The notes below the pieces were generated by a model. It had not been told where the DNA came from. It ran no database searches and was given only the letters and a program-made list of their open reading frames with translations. A program made the translations under genes and the position numbers. Below, one piece after another: positions 5,323-24,659 of a stretch of 60,640 bases of DNA (positions within the stretch are counted from its first letter, which is position 1; each line of letters begins with the position of its first letter). Source of the stretch: a virus; the IMG/VR virus record IMGVR_UViG_3300036774_000032, positions 1-60,640 of that record; one strand, 5' to 3'.

Positions 5323-6209
5323 TACCGCCTCGCTCCCACGGAGAACTGACTCCGGACGTACAACCCCGGCTTGAGCATCCGTCGCTGTCGGGCCTTCATG
5401 TGCTTCAACTTCTCCGGGCCCGCCGCCGCGAAGGAGGCAAACCGATCGTCGTTCATATCCACCAGCAGCTCTCCGGCCGCGGCATAGACGAGCACCATGC
5501 GGTCCTCGGGAGGCTGGATGATTGGCGTATCGCTGGACACCACCCCGTCGAACGTGAGCGCGCCGGGATGGTAGGTGTAGTCATATTCATAGCGACGGGC
5601 CTCGGTCGGGTAGGGGGCGATCCGGAGAACCCCATCCCCGATGATGGCGCAGTACCGGGCGCTGACTCCGCTACTTGACCGGTACGGGTACTCTGCGTCC
5701 ATGCGGCCCGGGGAAATCAGGTCCATGTCATAACTGCCGTGGCAATCTCGAAGGAACCGACCCGTGTTGACCGGCGCCAGGAAGTCGGATGCGAGGTCGT
5801 ACTCGTCCTGGAAGACGGCATACGTGAGGCCGCTTCCCCCGTCGCCCTGGTACGTCGAGTCGAGGGTGAACCCCGTCTGCCCGGCCGTGTGTGCGATGAT
5901 CCGGCAGACGATCCCATCAGCGTCCGTGCGGATCTTCCGCCCTTCCACGGAGGCCGTCGGGGCGCTGGAGAATGTCCCGGATGCCGAGTCGGTCGTCAAG
6001 GTGACGCTTCCGGTCGTGATCTCTGCGACGGTGTTCAGGACACCCGGAGGCGTTTTTCGCGCGAACAGCCATGGGAAGTCTTCGAGGACGGCGATATACG
6101 ACGTGTTGATGTAGTCCTCAACCTCCGAGCCGAAGTCGGGGCTCACGGCATCGTCGCCAGCGCGAGAGAGGATCAGCGCCTTTAACTCCTCACCGGTCGT
6201 ATAGCCCAT
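5322..6209 (-). CDS. Head-tail adaptor / tail tubular protein A-like
   Basis: This 295-residue protein opens with a helical segment (TTGEELKALILSRAGDD) followed by EDYINTSYIAVLEDFPWLF. That is the arrangement seen in the N-terminal helices of podovirus adaptor proteins (T7 gp11 and P22 gp4 type), which sit under the portal. A beta-rich middle and the segment DEYDLASDFLAPVN also fit this group, where a YxLPxDF-like stretch is common. The C-terminus is basic and helical (KHMKARQRRMLKPG). It overlaps the gene downstream (gp10-like), as expected for a head-completion pair. Confidence 0.65.
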   Translation of the reverse strand: MGYTTGEELKALILSRAGDDAVSPDFGSEVEDYINTSYIAVLEDFPWLFARKTPPGVLNTVAEITTGSVTLTTDSASGTFSSAPTASVEGRKIRTDADGIVCRIIAHTAGQTGFTLDSTYQGDGGSGLTYAVFQDEYDLASDFLAPVNTGRFLRDCHGSYDMDLISPGRMDAEYPYRSSSGVSARYCAIIGDGVLRIAPYPTEARRYEYDYTYHPGALTFDGVVSSDTPIIQPPEDRMVLVYAAAGELLVDMNDDRFASFAAAGPEKLKHMKARQRRMLKPGLYVRSQFSVGARR

Positions 6210-6221
6210 GACGCTCTCCTG

Positions 6222-6884
6222 TCAGTGCTTTCTGTCCCCTTGAATCTCGCGGTGCAAGATGATCTGTCCGTTGATGGCAACCAACCGCTTGTCGATGCGG
6301 TCCATCCAATCGGTCACAAGTTCCCGGAAGACGCTCATCTTCCGCAACTCTTCCGCCTGGGTTTCGATCTTCTGCCGGATGTTCTGCCCCTTGATCGTCA
6401 CCTTTACGTCCGTCAGCGGAACTAAATCCGTCCGGAGAATGTTGGTTGTAACGAGCATCTGACTGTGCAGGAGATACTCGCCGCTGATGATGGCCGGCGC
6501 TTCGATAGGCAGACTGATCGTGTGGCATCCTTTCACACTCGCAATCGGGATAATCAACTGGAGTTCGTAGGCGAAAATCACGTCCTTGTTCGCCCCCTGC
6601 GTGCCTTCCATCCAGCGTCGCAGATACATTCGCTGCGTCGTGTGTGTGAGGCAATATTCGCGGTACGTGTAAAAGAAGTCCCCCGGCTGAACCGATTCGA
6701 GGGGACGCAGATGGTCTCGGTCGATACTCGTACCATCATGCGCCACGGGGGACGCATAGACCTCCCAAAAAGGAACAGGGTCAAACGCAATGAGATAGAC
6801 GATGAAACTGAGGCACGCTGCCATCACGCCGAGCATGGCCCAGAGCGGGAACCAAGGATATTTCCGGAAGAAGTCATTTACCAT
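6222..6884 (-). CDS. Membrane-anchored protein, 220 aa, unknown function
   Basis: One transmembrane helix lies near the N-terminus (residues about 12-34, PLWAMLGVMAACLSFIVYL). It is followed by a long extracytoplasmic beta-rich domain and a charged C-terminal helix. The start overlaps the stop of the upstream 72-residue membrane gene by 11 bases, so the two are probably translated together. The pair resembles a small lysis-like or superinfection-related membrane module placed inside the tail region. No family was recognised, and a spanin-like or envelope role is only a guess. Confidence 0.6.
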   Translation of the reverse strand: MVNDFFRKYPWFPLWAMLGVMAACLSFIVYLIAFDPVPFWEVYASPVAHDGTSIDRDHLRPLESVQPGDFFYTYREYCLTHTTQRMYLRRWMEGTQGANKDVIFAYELQLIIPIASVKGCHTISLPIEAPAIISGEYLLHSQMLVTTNILRTDLVPLTDVKVTIKGQNIRQKIETQAEELRKMSVFRELVTDWMDRIDKRLVAINGQIILHREIQGDRKH

Positions 6885-7092
6885 GGAGCATCACCAGGGC
6901 GACGAGTGCTCCAATAAACCCCGTCAGGATCACCGCCAGCATCCCGTAGACCACGGCTCTCACGGGTTGAAACTCCGCCTTCGGGGTGAAATAGGGATCG
7001 CTCCCGTTGCCAAGTTTTCGTTCCAAATGCTGCAAGCGTTCATCCATCCGTGCAAGTTTCTCTCTCGCTGAATCATCCAGGGGCTGCTCCAT
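6874..7092 (-). CDS. Small coiled-coil plus TM protein, holin/XhlA-like
   Basis: This is a 72-residue protein with a charged amphipathic N-terminal half (ARMDERLQHLERKLG) and a single hydrophobic C-terminal helix (VVYGMLAVILTGFIGALVALVML). The layout matches haemolysin XhlA-type and small holin accessory proteins. It overlaps the next membrane protein gene by 11 bases. A second, larger holin-like gene lies in the lysis cassette at 44753-45283, so this one may have an accessory or unrelated role. Confidence 0.55.
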   Translation of the reverse strand: MEQPLDDSAREKLARMDERLQHLERKLGNGSDPYFTPKAEFQPVRAVVYGMLAVILTGFIGALVALVMLHGK

Positions 7093-7101
7093 GCGAATCG
7101 A

Positions 7102-7455
7102 CTACAGATTATACTTCGACACGCACTTCACGGTCAGGCTCGTGCTCGACCCGCCAACCGTGCAATTCGGCCGGATGTACTTCGGGTTCTCCTGGAGGGT
7201 CTCCCCGAAGTCGCTCGTCTTGCTGAGTTGGTTCCCCTGGCCGTCGGTCAACGGGAAGGCGTCGGACTTGTCCGCGGCGTTCGCCCCCTGGATGATGAGG
7301 GTGGCCCCATTCCAGACCCCATACGCCGTGATGGTCTTGTCCGGGAGGTGCGGCGCGTCCAGCCATCCGCCAGCATCGCCGCTCGTGATGGGCGTCCAGA
7401 TGGCTTCATGGACTCCGCCGAGGGTGTATTCACCGTAGGGATTTACCGTCGCCAT
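7102..7455 (-). CDS. Small structural protein, 117 aa
   Basis: A compact beta-rich protein with no membrane segment. The beginning (NPYGEYTLGGVHEAIW) and the Gly/Asn/Thr-rich composition match small virion decoration or tail-associated proteins. Its start lies 26 bases inside the end of the upstream glycosyltransferase gene. Its last codons contain a TATAAT sequence that might act as a weak promoter for the membrane pair downstream. The function is not known. Confidence 0.5.
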   Translation of the reverse strand: MATVNPYGEYTLGGVHEAIWTPITSGDAGGWLDAPHLPDKTITAYGVWNGATLIIQGANAADKSDAFPLTDGQGNQLSKTSDFGETLQENPKYIRPNCTVGGSSTSLTVKCVSKYNL

Positions 7456-8320
7456 GGGCGCCTCTCCTCTTCGGTTTCGCTTCCAACGGCTTGTGCCGGA
7501 GGGGCAGATGCAGCGGGTACTGCGTGCCGTCCGGCGTGATATGTTTGCAGAAGATGCTCGTGTCCATCAGGAAGGGGTACTTCTTGGCCGCGATCTTCGG
7601 GAAGCCCGCTCGCTTGAGGTATCCACCCTCCATGACGCGATTGCACCATGCCAGGTCTTCGGTCCCGGTGAAGGCCGTCCAGGATTCCTTGACCGGGTCG
7701 AATGTCTGGCCGGCTGGCGTGTCGAATATCTGGGCGATCTTCTTATCATGGCCTGGGGGCAGGTACTTCGGCGCGTCCTTCGTCATTTCCCGCAGGATGG
7801 AGACGTGGATCAGCGTGCAGCCCATCGGGACCCCGTCCACCCAGACCTTCTCGCCGAGCTTCCAGTCGGTAAAGTACCCATTGCCTCGGCCGCGGTAGAG
7901 CAGGGGCTCCGGCGGGTGGGCCTTGGCACAGTACAGGCCAGAAACGACGGGGATCGTCCCGTCAAGCATATACTGGTTGAGCTTCACGAAGGTGGTCGGC
8001 GGGAGAATCACGTCATGGTCGATGAAGAGGAGCCAGTCATACGCCTGGCTCACCGCGGCGTCCACGACGATATTCCTCGCCTCGGCCACGGCGTATCCCA
8101 GCGGCGTGGCCTGGTTGTACCAATAGACGATTTCGCTGTTACTCCAGTTGCACGGGATCGTCTGCCCGTAGCGCGCCATCGCCCACTCGGCCCGGATTAG
8201 GCCGGTCATGGGGACACCGACCATGATGCGATGCTGCGGCTTCTGGTTGGCCTGGAGGAGCAGGCCCATGTACCTCTCGCCCTTCGCTGTTTTCGGCACA
8301 ATGCCGCTCCTTTGTGTCAT
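7430..8320 (-). CDS. GT-A fold glycosyltransferase, 296 aa
   Basis: The start chosen is the ATG at 8320-8318, which overlaps the upstream stop as ATGA; a longer frame exists but runs through the upstream gene. The enzyme shows a DxD-type motif in LLFIDHDVILPP, then the loop DGVPMGCTLIHVSI and the acidic motif GTEDLAWCNRV expected near the acceptor site. It has the same order of motifs as the glycosyltransferase crossing the contig join. It sits in a cluster with a second glycosyltransferase, a CmcI-like enzyme and a methyltransferase, which together look like a glycan synthesis or modification set. The substrate is unknown. Confidence 0.8.
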   Translation of the reverse strand: MTQRSGIVPKTAKGERYMGLLLQANQKPQHRIMVGVPMTGLIRAEWAMARYGQTIPCNWSNSEIVYWYNQATPLGYAVAEARNIVVDAAVSQAYDWLLFIDHDVILPPTTFVKLNQYMLDGTIPVVSGLYCAKAHPPEPLLYRGRGNGYFTDWKLGEKVWVDGVPMGCTLIHVSILREMTKDAPKYLPPGHDKKIAQIFDTPAGQTFDPVKESWTAFTGTEDLAWCNRVMEGGYLKRAGFPKIAAKKYPFLMDTSIFCKHITPDGTQYPLHLPLRHKPLEAKPKRRGAHGDGKSLR

Positions 8321-9003
8321 TGCCACACCGAGTTTGCCAAGACGAGAGGTGAGCCCCACTTCGAGAGAAGGTAGGATGCGGACGGTCGGATTTCGTCCTC
8401 TCTTCCCTCGAAGGATTTTGCCGTCCAGTGGGTGAGGTCCAGATCGGACACGTAAACCGTGCGACCGTGCTTCGCCATCTGCATGCACAGATCCTCAACG
8501 GCCCCGTGCCACCCCGGGATTTGTGGGTCGAAGTCAATGTGCGCTCCGTTGACGATGCACAGAACCGCGTCAAGGATGTTGACCTCCTCCGGCCCTTCGG
8601 AGACTCCAGAGTGAATATCCTGCCCAAGGTTCGGAGAGGCAACGCTTCCGATCTGGTAGATGTCTATTTTCGTTTCAGTTCCCTTGACCTCACTAAATCC
8701 GTACTTGACTCCAAGAGCGCCAAGAGTTCCCCATGGCTTTCCCTGCGCCTCAAGATTCCCTATGGAATCCCGAAACCGTTTGTTGCTATCGCGGGAGAAA
8801 GACACGTCCTGATGGACAAACACTCGAATCCTGTTCGATGCGATGGCCTGCCCTCGCTGGTACGCCTGGGCGATACTCGGCATTCCAGAGAACAGAAGTA
8901 CCTCGTCCCCCTCCACCAGAGACAGGGAATCCAATAATCGTTCCTTGAGCACCTTCGCGTCATTCCAGTGACAGATATACGACACGGGCTCCCTACTCAA
9001 CAC
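8317..9003 (-). CDS. Glycosyltransferase, Glyco_tranf_2_5-like
   Basis: This 228-residue protein has the sequence RVFVHQDVSF, the V-x-HQDV signature of the family 2-like (Glyco_tranf_2_5) group. It later shows the pattern FDPQIPGWHGAVEDLCMQMAKHG, which matches the FDE...H.YD.DLC block of that group. A GTLGALGVKYG loop lies between them. Its start overlaps the stop of the CmcI-like gene by 11 bases and its stop overlaps the next glycosyltransferase start. The role is inferred as adding a sugar in the same pathway as its neighbours. Confidence 0.7.
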   Translation of the reverse strand: MLSREPVSYICHWNDAKVLKERLLDSLSLVEGDEVLLFSGMPSIAQAYQRGQAIASNRIRVFVHQDVSFSRDSNKRFRDSIGNLEAQGKPWGTLGALGVKYGFSEVKGTETKIDIYQIGSVASPNLGQDIHSGVSEGPEEVNILDAVLCIVNGAHIDFDPQIPGWHGAVEDLCMQMAKHGRTVYVSDLDLTHWTAKSFEGREDEIRPSASYLLSKWGSPLVLANSVWQ

Positions 9004-9702
9004 GCTTCAACCATCCTCCCGGATGCCACGAGAGCCCAAATCGCTCTCGGGTGCGATCAATCGCAAACTCCGGATGCTGGGGAAGCCAGGAGGCGATGGC
9101 CTCGGCGGGCCCCTCGCCTTTCCAGTCGTTGAGGTCGAGGAACGCGATGTTCGTGTCCTCAATAATCAGATAACACCCAGGCGTTACCAGGGGCGCGTAG
9201 GCTTCCAGTTCGTCCCGCACATGCTCGGCGTGATGATCCGAGTCGAGGACGACCATGATTTTCTGATACCGTTTCTCCTGGATCCGCTGGGTAATGACCG
9301 TGACGCACTCCGGGTCTTCCGATTGTGCGGTGACGAAAGAGATATGCGAGTGCTGCACCTTCTTAATCTTCTGGCTCACCGCCGGATGGTACTTGTAGAA
9401 CGACTCCAGTCCTTGATTGTCGATCGTGATGATCTCGTAGGGAGTTCCGGAGGCGCTCCACAGTTTATCGAGCATGTGGGCCATGAACAGGGCGCTCCCC
9501 CGCTCCACGTCCCCGTCTCGATGATACAATCCGGCATGGTCTCCCAGATCACTTCCTGCAGCACCCAGGAGTCGATCGGGTTCTTACTGATCGGCACGCC
9601 GCAATAGGTCACGCCGAACAGCCAATTCCCCCGCTTGTAAAACCGCTTGTGATAGGCGATCTCTTCCGCCTGTTCCGGCGTCCAATGCGCTACGTCAGGC
9701 AT
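8993..9702 (-). pseudogene. CmcI-like (cephalosporin hydroxylase / sugar O-methyltransferase family), frameshifted
   Basis: Two overlapping frames together make one protein. The first, from the ATG at 9702, runs to PDCIIETGTWSGG; the second continues as GSALFMAHMLDKLW and holds VVLDSDHHAEHVRDELEAY, a hallmark of the CmcI family. The frames meet at a run of five C on the plus strand (9497-9501); one extra base there would restore a single protein of about 236 residues. The ATG at 9702 has a strong upstream site (GGAAGGAGCTTCT), which decides the start. The family contains SAM-dependent O-methyltransferases acting on sugars or lipids. The break may be a homopolymer sequencing error, a real mutation or, less likely, programmed slippage. 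Confidence 0.7.
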
Positions 9703-9766
9703 AGAAGCTCCTTCCATATTCGTTGCGCCCAGATCGTGCAGGAGATGCACAGGCCCTCCTGCCACA

Positions 9767-10354
9767 TCAGGCACCAGGTTCTCCAGCCCTCTGGCCTTCC
9801 ACAGACGACGCAGGGGGGAGGACCAGCTTGCGGAGGACGATTTCGAGGTTCTGCGTCTCGTTCCATGCGTTCGCCTCAATGGTCCACGGGCTCGGTTTGT
9901 AAATCTGCCAAGCCGGTTCGGTGTACGCGAAATACTTCGCCGTGTTCTCCGTCCATCCCTTCACGAAGGTCGGATCTTGCCGACAGGATGGGCTGCCGGC
10001 GTAGGCGACGGAGAGAATCAGCGCTCCCTTCGGACGGAGCACGCGCCAGCATTCGTTCATCACGGACATCACTTCCCATGGCGGAACCCGCTCGATCCGG
10101 TGGAAGCAAAACACCCGATCGAACACCTCCGCAACGAACGGCCATGGATAATCCGTGATCGCGTGAATAATCCCCTCGCCTTCTCGGGGCGTGTCCCACA
10201 TCGACACCGCCCCCTCTTGCTTGGCAAACACCGGGTTCAAGTCGAGCGTGACAATCCCGTTCGACTCCAAGAGATCCTTCCTGGCGAAGGCGGTCCGTTT
10301 TGGCGCGAGACGGATTCCTTCCGCCACCGTGTTACTAACGTGGTTCTGTCCCAT
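9767..10354 (-). CDS. SAM-dependent methyltransferase-like protein
   Basis: About 195 residues from the ATG at 10354; a TTG three codons upstream lies too close to the AAGGAGG site, so the exact start is uncertain. The fold signals are the acidic loop VTLDLNP, the WPF-AEVFDRVFCFHRIERVPP stretch and NECWRVLRPKGALILSVAY, typical of Methyltransf_11-type enzymes. The usual glycine-rich motif I before the acidic loop is not evident, so the N-terminus may be shortened or divergent. It stands next to the CmcI-like gene and two glycosyltransferases. Confidence 0.6.
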   Translation of the reverse strand: MGQNHVSNTVAEGIRLAPKRTAFARKDLLESNGIVTLDLNPVFAKQEGAVSMWDTPREGEGIIHAITDYPWPFVAEVFDRVFCFHRIERVPPWEVMSVMNECWRVLRPKGALILSVAYAGSPSCRQDPTFVKGWTENTAKYFAYTEPAWQIYKPSPWTIEANAWNETQNLEIVLRKLVLPPASSVEGQRAGEPGA

Positions 10355-10418
10355 CGGCGTCAATCGCCTCCTTGGTGCGTCGGTTCGGAAGGGAACCGGA
10401 CGCTTGTGTCGTGTGGAT

Positions 10419-11123
10419 TCATGCCGGGACCTCGATCCCGTTGGCGCGTAAGGCCTCCTGCAATCGGAGGAGTTGTTGCTGGCACAAGTACCAGCGTCGA
10501 TAGGCGTTCATGTGAATCATTCGGTGTTCTCGCTTGGTCATAACGACCAAGTTTTCCTCTCTGTTGTCATTTGGGACGCCGTTGTCGTGATGTACTTCCT
10601 CACCTACAAGGAGAAAGCGTCCAATCTTTTTCTCGACAATGAGACGGTGAGCCATGACGTAACCGTTTCTCGCTTCCGGGTGCTCTGGAGCATAGATCCC
10701 TACATGACCACCAGTCTCTTTTCGAGTTCCTCCTTGCCAATTACTTGCGTTCTCACCACGTCGAGGACCCAGTTTACGAAGTCCTTCTTTTACGGCCTCA
10801 ATCCGATCGTAGTGCTTCCATCGAAGCCCGTGTCGTCTCACATGATCGGACACATTCCCGCTGCTCGTACCGAGTTCTCGTGCGATGTCAACCATCGTCC
10901 TGGTTTTCAGTTGCTCCTCAAGCCAGTCTCGGTTTTGCAGCAAGGGATATTTGGCCGTGCGCTTCCTGTTCCACGTCCGAGGCTTCCCGGAGAGTCCTAA
11001 CCGCTTCAACGTGTTCGTGAACGTGGTCTCACACACGCCAAGCACTCGCGCTGCCTCCGCCTGTGATACCGACTTACTGAGATACTCTCTTTCGATGTCC
11101 TCTCGCGTCAACCTAGCTGGCAT
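10419..11123 (-). CDS. HNH homing endonuclease with HTH domains
   Basis: This 234-residue protein has two N-terminal helix-turn-helix segments (SQAEAARVLGVCETTF about 20-36, and TMVDIARELGTSSGNVSDH about 76-94) and a C-terminal HNH nuclease. The nuclease core comprises AHRLIVEKKIG, then EEVHHDNGVPNDNREENL (His178-His179, Asn181 and Asn191) and a final KREHRMIH. It is a free-standing mobile nuclease between a methyltransferase gene and a structural gene. It has its own AAGGAGG ribosome site and a good promoter at 11152-11180, unlike the surrounding coupled genes, which fits insertion of a self-contained element. Confidence 0.9.
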   Translation of the reverse strand: MPARLTREDIEREYLSKSVSQAEAARVLGVCETTFTNTLKRLGLSGKPRTWNRKRTAKYPLLQNRDWLEEQLKTRTMVDIARELGTSSGNVSDHVRRHGLRWKHYDRIEAVKEGLRKLGPRRGENASNWQGGTRKETGGHVGIYAPEHPEARNGYVMAHRLIVEKKIGRFLLVGEEVHHDNGVPNDNREENLVVMTKREHRMIHMNAYRRWYLCQQQLLRLQEALRANGIEVPA

Positions 11124-11151
11124 CGCTGTCCTCCTTGTTCGGGTTTAGGAC

Positions 11152-11180
11152 AGTATACGCCAACCTAGTGGACTAATCAA
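11152..11180 (-). promoter_or_regulatory. Sigma70-type promoter of the HNH gene
   Basis: On the minus strand a -35 box TTGATT (11175-11180) is separated by exactly 17 bases from a -10 box TATACT (11152-11157). The HNH start codon follows about 28 bases after the -10 box, with AAGGAGG just before it. It is one of the best matches to the bacterial housekeeping consensus in the window. Confidence 0.6.
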
Positions 11181-11185
11181 GAGGA

Positions 11186-11770
11186 TTATGCAAGTCCACT
11201 GAAAGAGAGCAGCCCAAGCACCTTTGCGATCATGTAACCAATTGTAAACAAAGGCGCTAGAGCAGCGAAGCTAACATCGTAGGTCGCTTGTACGTCCTGA
11301 TTCGTCCCCCACGCGCTCGTGGCGTAGGTCTTCCCACACAGGATCGTCCCGCCCGAGGTCGTGTTGTTGACGAGACCGATGTTCTGGATCGTTACGCCCC
11401 CGGTCAGGTGCGAATCCGAGCTGGCCCAGGTCGCCGTGAAGCGCGCCGTCTTGCTGGCTACGTTCGCCGTAGTGACCGCCACGCGGTTTCTCGACGTGAC
11501 ATGCTGGATCTCGGCGGGCAGGCTCGCAGCCGTCACGTCCGGGTTGGTTCCGGTCCCGAGGCACATGCGCCCGACGGCCTTGGCGGAACCGCCGAGCAGA
11601 GGCGTCACGAGGTAGCCGCTGAACCCGTCGTTGACGACGACGTTCTCCTGCCATCCGGAGTCTCCGGCCTCGCTCCCGTCCTGATTGATGATCTTGACCC
11701 GGAAGAACCCACGGACCTTCGCCTTCTCCTCAAGCACTGACTCCCGCTTTCCCCGCTTAGCCATCGACAT
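11186..11770 (-). CDS. Virion structural protein, 194 aa
   Basis: A basic N-terminus (AKRGKRESVLEEKAK) leads into a beta-rich body with conserved-looking stretches GFFRVKIINQDGSEAGDSGW and TARFTATWASSDSHLTGGVTIQNIGL. This style is common in phage tail or baseplate proteins that build a beta-sandwich. The C-terminal end is hydrophobic (LFTIGYMIAKVLGLLSF) and could bury in an assembly interface. The start is the ATG at 11770, overlapping the upstream 84-residue gene by 14 bases. No family name is claimed. Confidence 0.6.
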   Translation of the reverse strand: MSMAKRGKRESVLEEKAKVRGFFRVKIINQDGSEAGDSGWQENVVVNDGFSGYLVTPLLGGSAKAVGRMCLGTGTNPDVTAASLPAEIQHVTSRNRVAVTTANVASKTARFTATWASSDSHLTGGVTIQNIGLVNNTTSGGTILCGKTYATSAWGTNQDVQATYDVSFAALAPLFTIGYMIAKVLGLLSFSGLA

Positions 11771-12011
11771 GACCCTCCTCGTGACCGATGATCCGGACGG
11801 TGGGGTGATCGGTCACACTCACCCCGTCCCTGGGAATCTGCCGCTCGACATAGCGCAGATCGCTGCACACCTTGGCGAGCTGAGCGGCGATCTGCTCGGC
11901 CAGGTCCACTGGAAAGAGATGGGTTTCGGGCTCGGCATCTTTGTAGAGGAACTGCAGCGCCGCCCGCTCTCCATACGTCCCAACTTCCACTTTCTCGATG
12001 TGCTTCTCCAT
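11757..12011 (-). CDS. Small hypothetical protein, 84 aa
   Basis: The start is the ATG at 12011, two bases after the stop of the repeat protein; the longer open frame upstream is only the out-of-frame shadow of that gene. The sequence (MEKHIEKVEVG, then PVDLAEQIAAQLAKVCSDLRYVERQIP) is a mix of strand and amphipathic helix, hydrophilic, with one Cys. It sits among fibre-like and structural genes and could be a fibre chaperone or assembly factor, but this comes from position only. Confidence 0.55.
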   Translation of the reverse strand: MEKHIEKVEVGTYGERAALQFLYKDAEPETHLFPVDLAEQIAAQLAKVCSDLRYVERQIPRDGVSVTDHPTVRIIGHEEGHVDG

Positions 12012-12013
12012 GG

Positions 12014-13630
12014 TTAGGCCCTCCGGCGGCGCCGCATCAACAGCAGGCCGCCTGTTGGAAACGTGAGCGTCTCGATCACAATGACCGAGTCCGCCACGTC
12101 GATAAAGCGACTCCCCGAAAGCGTATGGTCGATATCTTCCGCCAGGGTGATCGCATCCGTCGCCAGCATCCGCAGGGGTGTGAGGAATCCGGCCGGAGAC
12201 TCCGTGATCGTCACGGCCTCCGTGGTTTGAATCTCGATCATTTTCACTGTCTCCAGCGTCGGCGTATCCGACACGGTAATCGAATCGCTCGCCTCCGGTT
12301 TGAGCGCCGTCAGCAGGGGTGTCACGGTTTCCGTCAGGGTGATCGTATCCTCGACCGCCGGCAAGATCGTGCCGGCATTCAGGACGTTGACGGATGGGAC
12401 ATCGTCCACAGTGATGGCGGTTGTCACCCACACGGACCACCCACCAAAGAATTCGACGGCGGTCTCCGTGATCGTCACGGCTTCAGAGACGAAGAGAGGG
12501 ATGGACAGCGTCGGGGAGATGTTCGCCCCGGTATTCTCGATCAGGTTTACTGTTTCGGTGAGGTTGATATAGGACTTGAATGATACGTGAACGGTTTCCG
12601 TCACGGTCACGTCTTCTCCCGGTCCGATCCAGCTTGGGAAGAGGTCAACGTGATCGGTCGGGAGACTATCCGTGACGGTGATGGCGTCGCTCACACTGGG
12701 GTAGATGGTCCCACGAGTCCCCGCATCGGTCACGGTATCGGTAACGGTGATGGACTCCGAAACTGAGACCTTGAGCACGGGGAGGATAACGGTCGGAGAA
12801 TCGGAGACCGTGATCGCCTCGCTGGCGAGTTTGGTGATGGTCTCAACGGAGGAGAGAGTGAGCGACGAGGATTCTGTGATTGTGATGCTATCGAGCGCGG
12901 TCGGGATCCCCGTGAGAACCACGGTGGGGGTGTCTGTGATGGTAACGGCGCTGCTGACGTTCGGCAGGTCCGCGCCGTAGGTGAGGGTGACGGTTTCCGT
13001 CAGGGTGACGTCCTCGGAGACGGAGGGGGAGGGGGCCGCAAGCACTTCCCCCGTCCCCTGCCACCGTGCAAACCAGTTATAGCCATTAGAATCGTCAAAC
13101 ATCGAAAAGATTCCCGGAGAACCTGCGGCCAGTTCTGCCCCGCCACCCCCGGCGATATTCGTCAATCCTGTCAGGGCGGATCCGTTATGGTAGACCGTTA
13201 GGTTGTGCCCGGTGTCAATCTCCAGTTCGGTTCGCGCTCCGGCGGTCAGGGTGCCATGTGCCGCCGTCGTCAGTTCGGTGGCGATATGGTTGACCACGCG
13301 GCACAGTCGACAGTTCCCGGAGGCAAAGTCCGCCCGATAGTAGGTGGCAGAGTCCGACTGTGCGCGGACGATAAGTCCCGGCCCGTTGCCAACGCCGGTC
13401 GTGTAAAAGATGATGCTGGATTTTTGTGCGGCTCCCCAACCAGACCCAGAATAATAGCGGGCGAATCCGTACCCGTTGCCGATGCTCCCTGCTCCGCTCA
13501 GCCAGTAATACCCTGTCCCAAACGGGCCGTTATAGGGACCATAGAATTTAAGGTCCCCAATCTCGATATCCGCAGGCTTCGTCCAGTTGGCGCTAAATGA
13601 TCCGCTCGCAAAGTCGTCAGAGATTGCCAT
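12014..13630 (-). CDS. Lectin-like plus beta-repeat adhesin, 538 aa
   Basis: Residues 1-200 resemble a concanavalin A-like jelly roll (DDFASGSFSANW start, a pattern seen in secreted glycan-binding domains). Residues about 205-525 are about fifteen degenerate repeats of 18-26 residues with the core S-(E/D)-x-(I/V)-T-(V/I/L)-(T/S)-(E/D)-(T/S). The very end is a short hydrophobic Gly-Leu stretch and five Arg. There is no signal peptide. It lies directly upstream of two other adhesin-like proteins in the same operon. A tail spike or side fibre with an extendable beta-repeat stalk is the favoured reading. Confidence 0.65.
   Translation of the reverse strand: MAISDDFASGSFSANWTKPADIEIGDLKFYGPYNGPFGTGYYWLSGAGSIGNGYGFARYYSGSGWGAAQKSSIIFYTTGVGNGPGLIVRAQSDSATYYRADFASGNCRLCRVVNHIATELTTAAHGTLTAGARTELEIDTGHNLTVYHNGSALTGLTNIAGGGGAELAAGSPGIFSMFDDSNGYNWFARWQGTGEVLAAPSPSVSEDVTLTETVTLTYGADLPNVSSAVTITDTPTVVLTGIPTALDSITITESSSLTLSSVETITKLASEAITVSDSPTVILPVLKVSVSESITVTDTVTDAGTRGTIYPSVSDAITVTDSLPTDHVDLFPSWIGPGEDVTVTETVHVSFKSYINLTETVNLIENTGANISPTLSIPLFVSEAVTITETAVEFFGGWSVWVTTAITVDDVPSVNVLNAGTILPAVEDTITLTETVTPLLTALKPEASDSITVSDTPTLETVKMIEIQTTEAVTITESPAGFLTPLRMLATDAITLAEDIDHTLSGSRFIDVADSVIVIETLTFPTGGLLLMRRRRRA
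12070..13018 (-). repeat. Tandem beta-repeat coding region (about 15 units)
   Basis: This stretch encodes about fifteen consecutive repeat units of the adhesin, each with a core like SEAITVTET or SDSITVSDT. At DNA level the repeats are diverged, with codons differing between units, so they are old rather than a recent tandem expansion. The mirrored plus strand shows the same periodicity. Confidence 0.7.
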
Positions 13631-13644
13631 GCTGTACCCCTACC

Positions 13645-14727
13645 TTACGCTGGGTCCGCGATGTCCTGCGTCGAGATGATGATTTCATCAATCCATTTCT
13701 CATGGATTCCGCAGACTTCCGTGGGGTCGTGCTCGGTCACATAGGTGTTGATCCAGATTTTCCCAAACTCGCCACCCTCAACGGCTGGTTCATCTACACT
13801 CCCATCTGGCGTGCGATAGATGGGATAGGTGCTTCCCGGCCAGCCATCATTCGAGTCGATATGGAGGATGCTTGGGCTGTGCTCCTGCGCCACCCACATG
13901 CGAATGCGCGAGGAGCCGGTATTCCAGGTCCCGATGTTGAAGCAGAGTTTCACAGTCATCCAGGTGTTCGGGATGATGTCGGGGCAGCAGTTATACTTAT
14001 CGTCATTGGCGTCACTTGTCGTATCCAGATACCGCAAACACCGATAGGGGGTTGTCGGATTGTGGGTAAAAACGCGATCATTCCCGACCATGAAGGACAA
14101 ATTCTCGTAGGGCTTATTGTTGTATGGAATGACCTCATATCCACATTGGTAGAAGCATGGACTAAGCCGGGGACGCCAGATACCACCACTCAAGGTGGGA
14201 TACAAGCCTCCGAGAGTCACCACCGCTTCAAGGTCCGAGTGGGACATGGCCGCTACGCCCGGCTTGTCGCCCATCCCCACATAGAGAATCTTCGCAGTGC
14301 TCGTGTACGTTCCATCACCGACATGTTTGTAGGCGCGGAAGGCTTCGTCGCTGAATCGCATGCGAAACTGCACGTAGAAGGTGTCGCCCTCGCCAAACTG
14401 AACGGAGTTATCGGCGGTGAAGCGATAGCCAAGGTCGCCCGTGGGTTTGGTAGAAAAGACGCTCGGACAGGTCCATTTGAGCGAGCCCGTGCCGCTGGAC
14501 TTCACCGCCGTGTCTGCCGAAGCGCGGAGGTAGAAATCGTTGTCGCCATACTGCGAACTTGGATTGGAGTCCGACGCTCCGTAAATCTCCGAGGCGTTGT
14601 TGATGATGTCGGCCATGGTGTTGAACTTGAGGGCTCGGATCACCCCATTCGCGGGATTTGAACGTGCCGCGAAGTCAGCGTCGGCATTCGGGACAGTAAC
14701 CGATTTGAGGAATAGCGCCAACGACAT
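13645..14727 (-). CDS. ConA-like/jelly-roll virion protein with shared N-terminal peptide
   Basis: A 360-residue protein starting at the ATG at 14727, just downstream of the preceding stop. The first ten residues, MSLALFLKSV, are the same as those of the neighbouring gene at 15739. The body looks like a lectin or polysaccharide-lyase-type beta jelly roll: FYVQFRMRFSDEAF, WMTVKLCFNIGTW, RIRMWVAQE and a C-terminal EKWIDEIIIST strand. No enzyme active site could be assigned. A glycan-binding appendage attached to the virion through the common N-terminus is inferred. Confidence 0.65.
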   Translation of the reverse strand: MSLALFLKSVTVPNADADFAARSNPANGVIRALKFNTMADIINNASEIYGASDSNPSSQYGDNDFYLRASADTAVKSSGTGSLKWTCPSVFSTKPTGDLGYRFTADNSVQFGEGDTFYVQFRMRFSDEAFRAYKHVGDGTYTSTAKILYVGMGDKPGVAAMSHSDLEAVVTLGGLYPTLSGGIWRPRLSPCFYQCGYEVIPYNNKPYENLSFMVGNDRVFTHNPTTPYRCLRYLDTTSDANDDKYNCCPDIIPNTWMTVKLCFNIGTWNTGSSRIRMWVAQEHSPSILHIDSNDGWPGSTYPIYRTPDGSVDEPAVEGGEFGKIWINTYVTEHDPTEVCGIHEKWIDEIIISTQDIADPA

Positions 14728-14728
14728 C

Positions 14729-15739
14729 TTAGATTCCTTTGTAGACGAACATTCTTGGAGTGCCGCCATAGTTGTTCGTCACATACAACGTCACGCTATA
14801 GGTGGAGATCGGCGCGGAGAAGTAGCCACTGTAGTTCCCGTCCAACTTCATCGCGGCAAGGAGTTTGCTCGACTTGTCCACGCTTGTCCCTGTCGCTCCA
14901 TCATAGGCATAGAACACATCCCACAATGCCGTGCCGGAGCAGAGGTAGAATAAAAACTTCCCGGTCCCCGGATCAACGCACACCCGCGCCTGATTTGGAC
15001 CGCAACCGATAGCGCAGGGGAGTGTCCCTGGAGCGGCAGGACAGTTTCCAGCACTGTCAAGGATGTAGGCAGTCGTGGTATGATTATTTCCCCCACCCAG
15101 GAGCACCTTCCCCGTTGCAGAGTTGTACTCCGCAATAACGTGATTCTCATTTGTCGCCAAACCAGACGTGATCTGGCTCCATGCCGATCCATTCCATAGA
15201 TGCAAGTAGCCATGATTTAGGTAGAGCAGACCGGACATCTCAGGGTAATACGCGATGGCAGCCGTGTAATTGATGTCAAGATTCGGTGGGTCGGTGATCG
15301 TGCTCCACGTTGCGGTCCCGATGGCGTACTGGCGTAAGGGGCCATACTGCCCCTGCCGATAGTAAATAATCCCCGTGGCGGGATTGACGGCCATACCATC
15401 GTACGCATGGAACACGCCGTTGATTATCCCCCCATACCACGCCTGGTCCGTCAGTTTCACCCAGGCATTCGTGGCATCATCCCAGGACCAAAACGCCTGG
15501 TTTGGGGTCACGTCGGTGGTATGGGAACCCCCAAGGAGATAAAATTTCTTCCCCGTAGAGTCCCACACGCCGCTGTCCGAATATTGCATCAGCGACCCGG
15601 CCCCGAACTTGAAGATGTCCACGGAGAGTCCGGAAAATCCGGTCAACTCCGCGAAGGAGTCGGCGGACATCCCGGCGACAAGTTGGGCGAGAGCGGAGTT
15701 TCCGCCCACTACACTCTTTAAGAATAGAGCGAGGCTCAT
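14729..15739 (-). CDS. Beta-propeller (kelch-like) virion protein with shared N-terminal peptide
   Basis: A 336-residue protein that begins with the same MSLALFLKSV peptide as the next gene. The rest shows repeated blade-like units: VWDSTGKKFYLLGGSH, GMAVNPATGIIYYRQGQ, AIAYYPEMSGLLYLNHG, AEYNSATGKVLLGGGNNH and VCVDPGTGKFLFYL. This pattern matches kelch or galactose-oxidase-like propellers. There is no signal peptide. It is likely part of the adsorption apparatus, with the propeller recognising a receptor; this is inference from fold and operon. Confidence 0.65.
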   Translation of the reverse strand: MSLALFLKSVVGGNSALAQLVAGMSADSFAELTGFSGLSVDIFKFGAGSLMQYSDSGVWDSTGKKFYLLGGSHTTDVTPNQAFWSWDDATNAWVKLTDQAWYGGIINGVFHAYDGMAVNPATGIIYYRQGQYGPLRQYAIGTATWSTITDPPNLDINYTAAIAYYPEMSGLLYLNHGYLHLWNGSAWSQITSGLATNENHVIAEYNSATGKVLLGGGNNHTTTAYILDSAGNCPAAPGTLPCAIGCGPNQARVCVDPGTGKFLFYLCSGTALWDVFYAYDGATGTSVDKSSKLLAAMKLDGNYSGYFSAPISTYSVTLYVTNNYGGTPRMFVYKGI

Positions 15740-15740
15740 A

Positions 15741-15938
15741 CTAACTCCCGATCAGTTTGCCCTGCGCCACGACGGCCACGTCGAGGGATTTCTGGAATTC
15801 GACCGACGACGCCACGTATCCCGGCACAGGGGATGCGACGGTTCCGGCCGGCAACTCCAGTTGAAGGATAACCGGCGCCGTGTCCGGTAACGCTGCCGCG
15901 ACTGCCACCGCCTTGACCTGCCCCCATGTCATTGCCAT
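15741..15938 (-). CDS. Small hypothetical protein, 65 aa
   Basis: The protein (MAMTWGQVKAVAVAAALP...) has an Ala/Val-rich opening helix and a beta-rich tail ending QGKLIGS. It overlaps the end of the upstream 112-residue gene by 10 bases and precedes the propeller gene by one base. Composition and place suggest a minor virion or assembly protein. A second frame over the same bases lacks sensible composition and was set aside. Confidence 0.5.
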   Translation of the reverse strand: MAMTWGQVKAVAVAAALPDTAPVILQLELPAGTVASPVPGYVASSVEFQKSLDVAVVAQGKLIGS

Positions 15939-16267
15939 TGTCGGTCTCCTTTCACTGCGGGTTTCTCGTCTTGGAGTGAATCTACCTGATCGACCAAGGA
16001 AGGCCCCTCGGGAGCCCCACTGACGTTATCCACCTCGACCGTCTTGGCCTTGATGTCCAGTGACCCTCCGAATTCATGATGGGAGAAGCCGGTCACGGTT
16101 CCCTCCACGATGATCCGGGCCGTCTTTCCGAGGCCGAGGGACTGGACGTCTCCCGTCAGGCTGACGGAGGGCCCGTCTTCCCCATCCGCTCCAGGCCAAC
16201 TGATATGGACCGTCGGATCCCCCTTCGGGGCCGTCGGCATCCCAACTCCTGCCTGTACCTTCGCCAT
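15929..16267 (-). CDS. Small structural/accessory protein, 112 aa
   Basis: The start has a clear site (AAAGGAGCACT before ATG). The sequence opens MAKVQAGVGMPTAPKGDPTV and contains a beta-rich block (LGKTARIIVEGTVTGFSHHEF, SLDIKAKTVEVDNV). It looks like a single small beta-barrel or sandwich. It overlaps the 65-residue gene downstream. No known family; a head or tail accessory role is inferred from its place between capsid and fibre genes. Confidence 0.55.
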   Translation of the reverse strand: MAKVQAGVGMPTAPKGDPTVHISWPGADGEDGPSVSLTGDVQSLGLGKTARIIVEGTVTGFSHHEFGGSLDIKAKTVEVDNVSGAPEGPSLVDQVDSLQDEKPAVKGDRQWQ

Positions 16268-16276
16268 AGTGCTCCT

Positions 16277-16681
16277 TTACACGCGCTCGGGTGCCTGCGC
16301 GGATAGTCCTGCGTCCTCCGGTCGGAACTTGATTTCCTTCTTGCCTACCTTCTTGCGCTTCCGGACGTCGGTGATCTTCTCCTTGGGGGCCTTGCCTGAC
16401 GCGACGCGGTCGAGGAATTCCCGAAAGAGCGCCTTGGTCTTGGTGAGGTCCTTGTCGGGATCGTCGAACCACGCCTGCGCGACCTCCTCGGTGATCGGCG
16501 AACCGTCCTGGGTGAAGAAGCTCGTGCCCCGCTGGAAGATTGAGGGCTTGGGGGCCGTGCCCTTCTCAAAGAGCGTCTTCTGCCCTCCCATCATCCCCAT
16601 GACGGGAGGCTTTCCCTGATCGACAAACGCTCGGTCGTAGTCCAACTTCTTTCCGTTGGGCAATACCATCACTGCGCTCAT
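16277..16681 (-). CDS. Hypothetical protein, 134 aa
   Basis: The start chosen is the ATG at 16681, two bases past the stop of the ligase-like gene; the longer open frame overlaps that gene out of phase. The protein is hydrophilic: a Met/Gly-rich patch (PPVMGMMGGQ), then ITEEVAQAWFDDPDKDLTKTKALFREFLDR and a strongly basic segment (VRKRKKVGKKEIKF). The basic tail could contact DNA or an acidic partner. The function is unknown. Confidence 0.5.
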   Translation of the reverse strand: MSAVMVLPNGKKLDYDRAFVDQGKPPVMGMMGGQKTLFEKGTAPKPSIFQRGTSFFTQDGSPITEEVAQAWFDDPDKDLTKTKALFREFLDRVASGKAPKEKITDVRKRKKVGKKEIKFRPEDAGLSAQAPERV

Positions 16682-16683
16682 GG

Positions 16684-17835
16684 CTATCTCCCTGTTGCTT
16701 CCCAGCATGCGACGATGCCGAGAGCAAACAAATTGACCGGCCACGTCCGCCAGGGCATATACCCGAGGGACAGGACGGCCAAGGCGACCAGCGATCCAAA
16801 CAGGCCCGCCTCCAATGGGCTGACCCCACCCGCCACGCGGATGGCCGCTGTGCCAAGATAGCCCAATGCACAGAGGACAGGCAACGGACCGCACTCTAAG
16901 AGCGTTTCAAGCCAATCGTTATGCAACCACATCCAAATGCGTTCTCCTTCTTTCGGTGTCTGAACGCGCATCCCCAACCACCCGCCCAGGCCAATGCCGA
17001 GGCCGTGATTCCTCCGGATCATCCGGGAGGCAACCTCCCAGGCTTCCCAACGGGGATCGTTGACGAGGTGCCGTCGCGCGAAGGGATAGACTGCCAGGGA
17101 CAGCGAACCCATCAGTATTGACGGGAGAGCAAACCCCGCGGTGGTTCCGACCACGAGACAGCCCGCCACGGCTGACGCGGTACACGTCAGACTGTCCGCT
17201 TTGATGAGATGCCACCCAGCCAGAGCAACCCAGATCGCGCCAGCCACCGTCAACCACGGATTGCCGGTCCAGAAGAGGGACACCCCGACCGGAAGTAGGA
17301 TCGTGTTGATCGCCGCGACCTTCCATTCGTTGTGCAGGAAGGCGGTCGGTCGGCGGACCACCTCGCCAATCGGGCCAAAGGCCGCATCCTTCCACACCCA
17401 CCGTTTGATCCCGCGGTACACCTGGAGCATCCCGACGGAGTTGTTGTAGGCGGACAGGACGAGGAGGACACCCAGGAGCGGCCAAACGGTCGTCAGCCAC
17501 ATCGAGGCGGTCAACACGCCCAGGACCACGATCCAGGTGCTCAGCATGACAAGCTGGCCCGAGGCCTGGACAGGATCGGCGAGGGCAATCGTCCACTTCC
17601 GCTCGAGGCTCAGGAGGCTGATCGGGAGGGCGAGCGCGACGGTGAGCAGGAATGCGCCGATCCACGGTGAGGGGGCGAGTGTCGCGCAGACACTCGCCCC
17701 CAGGATGGCCGCCACGATGCCCCGGCTCTGATGATACGTGCAGAACCGGAGTTGGAGGCTCCACAGGACGCAGGCCAGCGCTCCGACGCTCAGGAACGCG
17801 ACTAGAGACCAGGCCGGCGCAAGCAGCGGGACCAT
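16684..17835 (-). CDS. O-antigen ligase/polymerase-like membrane protein
   Basis: A 383-residue polytopic membrane protein with about ten hydrophobic helices. After residue 260 it shows the Wzy_C / O-antigen ligase pattern: a WEVASRMIRRNHGLGIGLGGW stretch, a periplasmic loop, then WLHNDWLE (303-310) and a following helix with Gly. In this family the loop His and the nearby Arg are functionally important. Such enzymes join or polymerise undecaprenyl-linked glycans at the outer face of the inner membrane. Its place inside the structural operon is unusual. With the phage glycosyltransferases and methyltransferases it suggests changing the host surface, for example to block superinfection. Family assignment is from motif and topology. 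Confidence 0.65.
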   Translation of the reverse strand: MVPLLAPAWSLVAFLSVGALACVLWSLQLRFCTYHQSRGIVAAILGASVCATLAPSPWIGAFLLTVALALPISLLSLERKWTIALADPVQASGQLVMLSTWIVVLGVLTASMWLTTVWPLLGVLLVLSAYNNSVGMLQVYRGIKRWVWKDAAFGPIGEVVRRPTAFLHNEWKVAAINTILLPVGVSLFWTGNPWLTVAGAIWVALAGWHLIKADSLTCTASAVAGCLVVGTTAGFALPSILMGSLSLAVYPFARRHLVNDPRWEAWEVASRMIRRNHGLGIGLGGWLGMRVQTPKEGERIWMWLHNDWLETLLECGPLPVLCALGYLGTAAIRVAGGVSPLEAGLFGSLVALAVLSLGYMPWRTWPVNLFALGIVACWEATGR

Positions 17836-18426: not shown

Positions 18427-18888
18427 TTAAGAAACGTTTTCGAGCTGTGGCCTTCTTACCAACGCGAGGTGTTGTCTCATCGCTTCACGCTGCGCCATTA
18501 CCGGTTCAGGGCGTCTCCGGGTTGACCAACGTCCCTTTTCAAAGGTCTCCCGGAACTTCAGGGCAATCTCCGCTTCTCCTCTTTTTACTTTCAGGTATGG
18601 GAGAAGAAGGGAGATGATCTTTTCTGCCTGTCTTCCACTCCAAACAGCGCAGTAGCACGTCCTGGTTGACATGACCGGCTTCACGACGTTTGGCTTTTTA
18701 AACACCACGATTCGCCCAACGCCGAGCGCAGCCTGAATCCACAAGAGAACGTCTCTGTTGGTATTCACCATGGAGACCTTCAGTTCATACCGCCCAGCCT
18801 TCGGACGACCAGAGGAGGATTTGGTGATGCAGATAGAACCCTCTCCGTCGAAGAAGCCGGCGATATACTGAAGGTCTCCGGTGTCCAC
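18427..18888 (-). CDS. LAGLIDADG homing endonuclease, single motif
   Basis: A 153-residue protein with one LAGLIDADG motif at residues 8-17 (YIAGFFDGEG), followed by a beta-rich DNA-binding core (YELKVSMVNTNRDVLLWIQAALG, CYCAVWSGRQAEKIISLLLPYLKVKR). Single-motif enzymes of this size act as homodimers. The acidic Asp/Glu of the motif are intact. It lies between two structural genes downstream of the capsid gene, two bases after the stop of the upstream gene. A free-standing mobile gene is likely; whether it once sat in an intron cannot be seen. Confidence 0.85.
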   Translation of the reverse strand: MDTGDLQYIAGFFDGEGSICITKSSSGRPKAGRYELKVSMVNTNRDVLLWIQAALGVGRIVVFKKPNVVKPVMSTRTCYCAVWSGRQAEKIISLLLPYLKVKRGEAEIALKFRETFEKGRWSTRRRPEPVMAQREAMRQHLALVRRPQLENVS

Positions 18889-19404: not shown

Positions 19405-20361
19405 TCAACCGGTGAAGTACACCACCTTGGCCTCGCCATCGTTGGCCGTGTCGTTGGTCAGGCCAAAGGCGAGAATCCCGTACCAGGCCACGGCGCGCGC
19501 CCGGCCGAAGTCGGCCGCCGCTGCCGCGCGCAGCTCCGGATCCTGTGCCACCGCCATGGCGACGGCATCGTCCCCGAAAAACACGGCCTCGCCGACCACG
19601 CTCGATGTCCCCTCGCTATTCGAGAGGGCCGCGGTGTGATTCGACTCGAAGAAGTCGATGTTCTCGATGGTCCCGATCTTCGAGTTCTCGAAGGCCGAGC
19701 GGTTGGTCTCGGGGATCTGCGACCGCCAGGCGAGAAACTCGGGATCATTCTTCAGACCGCGGGCCGCCTTGGTGCTGATGATGCAGGCGTACCGCTCGCC
19801 GTTGCCACGCCCCGGGATGTGGATGGTGTCGCTCATGTAGTCCCGGATGACCTTCACGTGGTTGACGGTCATGTTCTGGAGTCCCGGGGTGCTCACCGGG
19901 ACGCCGTTGGTGTCCCAGGTGATCCCGGTCAGACTGGTCGGGATGGCCACCAGCTCGGACGCCTTGAAGGCCGCCGCCGCCGCGGTGTCCATGACCAGCT
20001 TCAACTGCCGGCGGAGGGCCTTCTGGATCTTGTCCGCCGGGTCGTAGTGCGCGAGGAGCGCGACCTTCTGGTCAAACTCCACGCCCCGCCCCATCTCTTC
20101 GACCGTGATGGTGACGGTTCCTTGCTGCAACCGGTCGATCGGGACGCGCTCCCCCTCGCGGATGGTCGCGTTCGTCGGCTCGGTCAGGTTCTTGATCGTG
20201 GTGATGGTGATGCTATCGCCTCGTCCGCGCCCGTAGCCCGGCTCGGGGCTCACGAAGCGCATGAAGAGCGCATCCGCGATCGAGGCCTCGCGGATCTTGG
20301 CGCTCAATGCGTGGTTCCGCATGACGCCCGCGCTGAAATCTGCTTCCCACTGGAACGGCAT
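19405..20361 (-). CDS. Major capsid protein, HK97-fold (N4 gp56-like type)
   Basis: A 318-residue protein right after the scaffold-like gene and with a good AAGGAG site. Features seen: an N-terminal arm, a TEPTNATIREGERVPIDRLQQGTVTITVEEMGRGVEF segment reminiscent of the E-loop and early beta strands, a long spine-like helix (ADKIQKALRRQLKLVMDTAAAAAF), and a C-terminal A-domain with NVxFFESNHTA-like and RARAVAWYGILAF strands. This order and length fit HK97-fold capsid proteins of the N4-gp56 kind. Order (portal, scaffold, capsid) strongly supports it. Confidence 0.8.
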   Translation of the reverse strand: MPFQWEADFSAGVMRNHALSAKIREASIADALFMRFVSPEPGYGRGRGDSITITTIKNLTEPTNATIREGERVPIDRLQQGTVTITVEEMGRGVEFDQKVALLAHYDPADKIQKALRRQLKLVMDTAAAAAFKASELVAIPTSLTGITWDTNGVPVSTPGLQNMTVNHVKVIRDYMSDTIHIPGRGNGERYACIISTKAARGLKNDPEFLAWRSQIPETNRSAFENSKIGTIENIDFFESNHTAALSNSEGTSSVVGEAVFFGDDAVAMAVAQDPELRAAAAADFGRARAVAWYGILAFGLTNDTANDGEAKVVYFTG

Positions 20362-22354: not shown

Positions 22355-22608
22355 CAGGGTTTCCCCTGCTTGTCATCTAGGCGGGATGCTGTGATGGCTC
22401 GGCTGCTGTCAGCGTCATCGCCCTGCGTGCTACCCATCCCGCCTGCCGGTGCTGACACTGAGGTCAGCAGGCCATTGAGTCCGTTGTCATGCTTCGAATG
22501 CTGGGTAATTGCATCGCATTTAAGGCATCGCCAACCTGCTGGACGTGCAATCAAACTAGGGACCATTTGCTTACACAAGGGACAAGAAATCAATTCTTCC
22601 ATGGTCAC
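22354..22608 (-). CDS. Zinc-ribbon protein, 84 aa
   Basis: It starts either at GTG 22608, overlapping the portal stop, or at ATG 22602. An N-terminal zinc ribbon is clear: CPLCKQM followed by WRCLKCDAITQH, two C-x2-C knuckles 17-18 residues apart. The rest is polar and disordered (Gly, Ser, Asp). It sits directly after the portal gene in the order of transcription. Zinc ribbons of this size often bind nucleic acid or proteins, but the role here is unknown. Confidence 0.55.
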   Translation of the reverse strand: MTMEELISCPLCKQMVPSLIARPAGWRCLKCDAITQHSKHDNGLNGLLTSVSAPAGGMGSTQGDDADSSRAITASRLDDKQGKP

Positions 22609-24659
22609 GCCCCTGGCGCCGTGCTGAGTTCATTCGGACTTGGCTTCATCTGCCGCATGGTCGGCTTCCCATTGCCCGGAGAGCCGGTCGGTGGTCCCTG
22701 TCTAGGGGCTCCCGGCGTTGGCTTCGGCAGCATGTTCGCCCCCGCCGCCGCCATGGCCGCGATCTCCTGCGGCGAGGCGCCCGCGAGTTCCTCCGCCATC
22801 ATCGGGGGGAGGTCGCCCCGCAGCGAGACGTTCACCTTTGGCGGCTCCTGCTTTCCCGCGAGCATCTTCTGCACCACGGCCGCCGGAACCATCTGCTCTT
22901 CGCTCACCGGGATCTTGTCGCGCACGCCCATGGCGTCGAAGATCGTCGAGAGGACCTCAGCCGGATTCGTGTACCCGGCATAGATTCCCTCGGCCGCCAG
23001 ACTGGCGGCCTGCATCAAGCGCCCGAGCAGATCCGCCTTCTGGAGGGATTGCGTGATGCCGCTAAACGTATAGTTGTACTGCCCGCCGAGTTCCTGCATC
23101 CGGGCTGCTGGTTCCATCATGTTCAAGAGCTGGGAGTATTGCGGCCCCACGACGGCGGCGATGGTCGGGTCGCTCCAGTCGGTCATGTACTGGCTCATAA
23201 AGTCATACGCCAGCTCGAGACAGGCCTTCCCGCCTTCCTCGATGTCGCGCCCCATCCCGTCGAACATGCCCATGCTCTGCCCGGTCCGGATCTGCACCTC
23301 GCCCTTGGTGATCTGGCTCCGCGTGCCCTGCGACCCCATCACGAAGTTATTGACAAAGGCGTTCTGCTCCCAGAGCGTCTGCATGAACTGCATCGCCGCG
23401 AGGACTTCCCCGGTGGACATCTGCCCGATCGCGGCCGGTGAGAGGAGCTGCCCCTCGCCGATCTTGCGCCAGAGCTTGCCAGGGTAGTGCTCGTGGTCGT
23501 CGTCCTCTTCCAGGAGGTTGGTGTTCAACTCGGTTGGCTGGTTGACCTTCCAGTTGAGCCCGTCTGTGAAGAGGTTGAACAGATTCGAGAACAGGACGGC
23601 TAGCGGCGTGACTGCTTGAAGGATGCCCCAGCCCTCGAAGCGCAGTGGATGGCGGATCGGTGAGAATCCGATGAATGGCCACTTCCGCCGGAAGGTCCGC
23701 GGGTCCACGGCCCACAGCGGATTCTCGGTCGGTCCGTAGATCAGGACCTTCCGATCCGCGGCGATCATCAGGGCGTCGGGATAGACGAGGTCGCCATTCT
23801 CGTCGAGGATGTCGCCGTACCACTCGGAGGCGAGGATGGGCTTCCGGAATTCATGGGGCTCCCACGTCTGACCCTTCCGCTGGGCATCGGCTGCGGCCCC
23901 GGATCTGTCGTCGGTCCCACCCGAGGCGCCCGACGCGAGCGCCGTATCGAGGTTCTTATAGACCGTACTCCCGCTCAAGACGGCGCGATCCACGTAATCC
24001 TCGTGGATGAGGTAGCTCCCAGACCACTGCTCGCCCGGGCGGCTGCGGGGATCGCGGTAGATGTTCCAGGGGGGAACGGTCCCGATGTCGAGCGCCGACT
24101 GACGCCGCATCTTGTACTGCGGCACGAGCGTTGGCATCTGTCCGGGGCTCGCCATGAGCTGCACGCTGTCGAGGATCGGCGAGGGCATGGAGGGATAGCG
24201 GAACTTCAGATACATGCTCATGCCCGTCGCCAGGCCGACCTTCATGGCGTCCACGAATTTCGGGATGAAGCCGGACTTGGTGAAGGCAAACAGGAGGACC
24301 GGGTTCCAGATTTTCTCCGCGAGGAGCTTGTCTTTCTGGTCGACGCCGTCGATCTTGGCGAAGTCCGAGTTATTCATCAGGCCGAGCTTCAGGACGTTGC
24401 TCGCCTGCTCGACCGCGCTCCAGGGCGTCGGGATCCAAACGGCCGACTGCCACTCTTCCTTGTCGCCGTAGTCGACCTCGGACTGGTAGTAGCGCCAGGA
24501 CTCGGTCCAGCCGGCGCGGAGCTTCGTCGTCGACCGCTCGCTCTCGTCGCGGTTCGCGTTGAGGAGCCGGATGAGATGCGCCTCGGGCAGGGCCAGGGCT
24601 TTGGCTCGGCCTTCGGCACGGGCCTGGGTGTCGAAACGCAGCTCCTCGGATGATGGCAC
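22605..24659 (-). CDS. Portal protein
   Basis: A 684-residue protein placed between the terminase module and the scaffold/capsid genes. Signals include RAGWTESWRYYQSEVDYGDKEEWQS near the N-terminus, a middle VPPWNIYRDPRSRPGEQWSGSYLIHEDY block, the helix region with HPLRFEGWGILQAVTPLAVLFSNLFNLFTDG and a clip-like segment. The C-terminal 100 residues are Pro/Gly/Ala-rich. Order and this SLSRF-like layout fit P22/podovirus-type portals, dodecamers through which DNA is pumped and ejected. The overlapping stop and start with the next gene support the annotation. Confidence 0.85.
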   Translation of the reverse strand: MPSSEELRFDTQARAEGRAKALALPEAHLIRLLNANRDESERSTTKLRAGWTESWRYYQSEVDYGDKEEWQSAVWIPTPWSAVEQASNVLKLGLMNNSDFAKIDGVDQKDKLLAEKIWNPVLLFAFTKSGFIPKFVDAMKVGLATGMSMYLKFRYPSMPSPILDSVQLMASPGQMPTLVPQYKMRRQSALDIGTVPPWNIYRDPRSRPGEQWSGSYLIHEDYVDRAVLSGSTVYKNLDTALASGASGGTDDRSGAAADAQRKGQTWEPHEFRKPILASEWYGDILDENGDLVYPDALMIAADRKVLIYGPTENPLWAVDPRTFRRKWPFIGFSPIRHPLRFEGWGILQAVTPLAVLFSNLFNLFTDGLNWKVNQPTELNTNLLEEDDDHEHYPGKLWRKIGEGQLLSPAAIGQMSTGEVLAAMQFMQTLWEQNAFVNNFVMGSQGTRSQITKGEVQIRTGQSMGMFDGMGRDIEEGGKACLELAYDFMSQYMTDWSDPTIAAVVGPQYSQLLNMMEPAARMQELGGQYNYTFSGITQSLQKADLLGRLMQAASLAAEGIYAGYTNPAEVLSTIFDAMGVRDKIPVSEEQMVPAAVVQKMLAGKQEPPKVNVSLRGDLPPMMAEELAGASPQEIAAMAAAGANMLPKPTPGAPRQGPPTGSPGNGKPTMRQMKPSPNELSTAPGA

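Follow-up and report, generated by a model that had tools for sequence, protein, structure and literature searches.

In the KP34 viruses of Klebsiella, the second receptor-binding proteins are dissimilar except for an N-terminal heptapeptide (MALxxLV), for which docking to an anchor protein was proposed as a model from sequence (Latka et al. 2019, PMC6872550). The tailspikes of K1E, K1-5 and SP6 carry N-terminal peptides of 7 and 11 residues (Leiman et al. 2007, as cited in PMC6872550), and the two proteins of K1-5 begin with different peptides. In Menlow, genes 050 and 052 encode tail spikes of one phage whose related N-termini show graded similarity over approximately 70 residues. Of the contacts described for SU10, the N-termini of the long fibres cover the adaptor, and residues 3–6 of the short fibres touch the nozzle protein (PMC9509320). 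The internal proteins of T4 are a diverse set with only a conserved targeting sequence in common (PMC3012670).

Here we describe two neighbouring genes of a 60.6-kb virus record (hereafter the window, the whole stretch of 60,640 nucleotides that was analysed). Judged by its portal, adaptor and major capsid protein sequences, the source of the window is an uncultured SU10-like podovirus, a short-tailed phage. The first-pass annotation had pointed to two consecutive genes with the same first ten residues, and we confirmed both the open frames and the starts: gene A reads MSLALFLKSVVGGNS from position 15739 and gene B reads MSLALFLKSVTVPNA from the ATG at 14727, both beginning with MSLALFLKSV (hereafter the tag; Table 1). 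The alignment of A with B covers residues 1–15 and nothing past residue 15, and identity ends abruptly after residue 10, N14 excepted. Since the open frame of gene B reaches back to a further in-frame ATG at 14769 (14 codons before 14727 and within gene A), the start had to be chosen; we prefer 14727, which is closely preceded by AAGGA and falls one base past the stop codon of gene A, the same spacing that separates gene A from the stop of the gene preceding it. The tag is thus probably the true N-terminus of both proteins as read from sequence, for gene B on the strength of this start context.

Table 1. Features of the window discussed in the text, with the evidence for each.
Feature	Position	Strand	Basis
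MSLALFLKSV tag of gene A	15710..15739	-	ORF start and codon comparison
MSLALFLKSV tag of gene B	14698..14727	-	ORF start and codon comparison
Gene A, 336 aa, possibly a kelch-type propeller	14729..15739	-	ORF; Kelch_6 E 0.12, below cut-off; weak internal repeats
Gene B, 360 aa from preferred start, fold unconfirmed	13645..14727	-	ORF; without Pfam match; upstream context
SU10-type portal	22605..24659	-	PF23899, 48.2 bits (cut-off 30)
SU10-type adaptor, candidate docking partner	5322..6209	-	PF24175, 27.9 bits (just over cut-off 27)
Major capsid protein	19405..20361	-	phrog_1357, E 4.2e-11
Tail-fibre-like protein, within insertion	11186..11770	-	phrog_4176 tail fiber protein, E 2.9e-08
Variable insertion with A, B, tail-fibre-like and sugar-transfer genes	6222..17835 (limits approximate)	-	Widened gap between major capsid protein and adaptor genes

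Comparison of all same-strand start pairs that the window offers between different open frames (823,091 pairs) revealed that A and B are the sole pair sharing more than 7 of 10 residues, the next best being 7/10, and composition predicts only about 1e-6 pairs matching at 9/9 among the 410 minus-strand ATG starts. None of the 1,299,490 start pairs from 80 loci of relatives shares at least 8 of 10 residues. A start pair of L012, seen at 8/10 in a smaller comparison set that was run alongside the window scan, was taken as chance. The codons also bear out the earlier claim of seven differences among the nine codons that follow Met (2/9 identical; 17 of 30 bases identical over the tag), with both serines encoded by AGY in gene A and by TCG in gene B. 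With this genome's codon usage, independent choice would give 3.3 identical codons, compared to the 2 observed, and 19.4 identical bases in codons 2–10, compared to the 14 of 27 observed (P 0.012 for a value so low). These counts, at or below the independent-draw expectation, indicate that the peptide has stayed unchanged while the DNA of the tag is saturated with change, supporting the proposal that selection acts on the peptide and not on the DNA: the codons are at least as different as independent draws would make them, and yet no residue differs. That the low base identity reflects avoidance of a direct repeat is speculation. That both genes begin one base after the previous stop could be read in favour of a signal in the DNA or RNA where genes begin, but base identity under the independent-draw expectation means that the tag has conserved nothing at either nucleic-acid level, and the composition estimate speaks against coincidence; we therefore regard both versions of this explanation as refuted by the counts.

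The tag is hydrophobic (mean hydrophobicity 0.47), and its helical amphipathicity lies within the permutation range (P 0.145). Hydrophobicity is what one would expect of a membrane or export signal, by which the two proteins would be displayed by the infected cell; we consider such a role very improbable, given the lysine at position 8 and a hydrophobic stretch shorter than an ordinary secretion signal requires. The codon of Leu5 is of a different interest: it is CTA in both genes, and CTA makes up 3% of Leu codons, a hint that the N-termini of A and B share common descent. Together with the abrupt end of identity after residue 10, this rare codon speaks for a tag that is the N-terminal remnant of an ancestral gene of which the rest was replaced, kept for the folding or trimer formation of each protein itself rather than for attachment to a shared site. 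On the other hand, it would be surprising if two unrelated bodies depended on exactly the same ten residues to fold, and we judge a remnant kept for such internal reasons to be unlikely, albeit the least unlikely of the alternatives considered here.

The bodies of the two proteins gave little to classify. A jelly roll and a propeller had been assigned to this pair, and neither fold was confirmed: gene A matches only Kelch_6, at a sub-threshold E value of 0.12, no Pfam family matched gene B, and single-sequence structure models of A and B (pLDDT 36.6 and 30.5, respectively, thus below 40) are unusable for fold assignment. Internal repeats of gene A beat shuffled sequences in summed score (P 0.005), while its best single pair does not stand out (P 0.27), and those of gene B are not above shuffles. 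The label of putative adhesin for A and B comes from position and general look, with no domain behind it.

We then searched for homologues and for other carriers of the tag. Neither A nor B had a credible homologue in IMG/VR, GTDB genomes, phage records, plasmids or PDB sequences, the IMG/VR and GTDB scans relying on exact 8-residue words, which distant relatives may escape; a PDB sequence (6blj_A, E 0.68) was dismissed as noise. Likewise, the first 60 residues of A had no credible relative in IMG/VR, nor did the first 40 residues of A or of B in phage records, and gene A had no credible match in the whole records of 14 relatives. By tblastn with 15 window genes, A and B were present in 0 of the 80 relatives' loci, which were kept out of 157 capsid-gene relatives and many of which are fragments. 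The search for this N-terminus elsewhere, suggested along with the original observation, gave nothing to support wider conservation: the exact back-translated pattern occurs in 0 IMG/VR stretches, and a relaxed pattern in 14, of which 12 have readings that stop before 100 aa and the other two (L008 and L010) are one and the same sequence with a long unrelated frame, all judged to be chance. The peptide string MSLALFLKSV did not occur in the literature searched. The weak point of the case is therefore that conservation of the tag rests on the single A/B pair, with no second genome carrying the tag and no homologue of either gene.

The gap between the genes for the major capsid protein and the adaptor is 13.2 kb in the window, compared to 1.6–2.8 kb in 12 of 12 relatives in which both genes were matched (from the first 16 relatives), and A and B sit in the resulting insertion of approximately 10 kb. 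Besides A and B, the insertion contains the tail-fibre-like gene, which has no relative in IMG/VR and only weak partial matches in phage records (10 records), a gene for a 538-aa protein (12014–13630, minus strand) that by eye has many ITVTDTVT-like repeats and is without a relative in phage records, and glycosyltransferase and methyltransferase genes (7430–10363, minus strand), possibly for virion glycosylation. Also in the structural block, a membrane-type protein (16684–17835, minus strand) matches the Wzy_C O-antigen ligase family below the cut-off, and two homing endonucleases recognized by eye lie between structural genes, one HNH-type (10419–11123, minus strand; matching two relatives' loci) and one LAGLIDADG-type (18427–18888, minus strand). 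Elsewhere on the minus strand, a 3735-aa protein (46344–57551) with a transglycosylase-like start, internal methyltransferase and helicase family matches and a C-terminal phrog_9854 match resembles a giant ejected protein with several enzyme activities, and 34344–36641 and 37600–38760 encode SbcC-like and SbcD-like nuclease subunits.

The main functional rival to docking on the particle is a head-targeting signal of the T4 capsid targeting type, which would send unrelated cargo into the prohead. A and B are not far from the capsid gene, and they resemble the T4 internal proteins in having diverse bodies with only a conserved sequence in common. However, the destination of the T4 sequence is the scaffolding core within the head, whereas A and B occur in a tail-fibre-like neighbourhood, with the tail-fibre-like gene in an insertion adjoining the adaptor, and beta-rich, adhesin-like bodies would be odd for internal proteins. 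The T4-type targeting sequence is removed by the prohead protease, and no peptidase family was matched by the 9 window proteins scanned. Taken together, we consider head targeting a rather unlikely role for the tag.

We favour virion docking on account of the location in a structural block with an SU10-type portal and adaptor, together with the KP34 and K1E/K1-5/SP6 precedents, and the insertion that A and B share with a tail-fibre-like gene supports the same reading. Thus MSLALFLKSV is probably, with reasonable though not high confidence, an N-terminal docking peptide that serves the same type of site on the particle for two unrelated, probably surface-binding proteins. The docking tag of the first-pass annotation in this way stands as the best explanation, while incorporation into virions, the partner and the adhesin roles stay at the level of proposals. 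The tag would plug the unrelated bodies of A and B, both presumed to be incorporated into virions, into one type of site, for which the likeliest partner would be the adaptor or a different tail protein, and might bind as a short amphipathic helix with L3, F6, L7 and V10 on one face. One sharply bounded decapeptide on two proteins suggests one type of site, possibly with mixed occupancy. A more tentative extension, which we offer with some doubt, is that two unrelated adhesins with the same plug compete for equivalent sites on a symmetric component of the tail or capsid, so that each particle would be a mosaic with a mixture of receptor binders and a ten-residue tag would be enough to add new adhesins. 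If docking is true, ten residues are all that unrelated adhesins need to occupy one site, which would be a very small unit of exchange for the host-recognition proteins of phages. An identical tag in one genome would then also lend itself to a simple search for virion-surface proteins that lack annotation, by a common N-terminus on unrelated bodies with diverged codons.

Compared to the KP34 and K1-5 systems, A and B share with them an N-terminal peptide of roughly 7–11 residues (10/10 identical, in a single pair) on otherwise dissimilar bodies, and the window contains two candidate anchors, the PF24175 adaptor and the tail-fibre-like protein. In the literature searched, which leaves most subscription journals outside its coverage, we found no precedent for an identical tag on two unrelated proteins of one genome. 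Like the KP34 heptapeptide, the tag is short, hydrophobic and at the very N-terminus of proteins that are otherwise dissimilar; unlike it, the tag is found in adjacent genes of one genome instead of across different phages, and its ten residues are strictly identical. By analogy with K1E, K1-5 and SP6, in which short N-terminal peptides are proposed to hold two receptor-binding proteins of different activity on one virion, A and B may be held in a similar way, with the difference that the two proteins of K1-5 do not begin with the same peptide. The same start-pair scan of the K1-5, SP6 and Menlow stretches reached a maximum of 7/10, indicating that the docking peptides known in these phages have a different shape from the tag of A and B, and the long graded region of the Menlow-group spikes stands against a sharp, identical decapeptide here. 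Our best guess is that the mechanism is one already proposed for other phages and that the arrangement in this genome is unusual.
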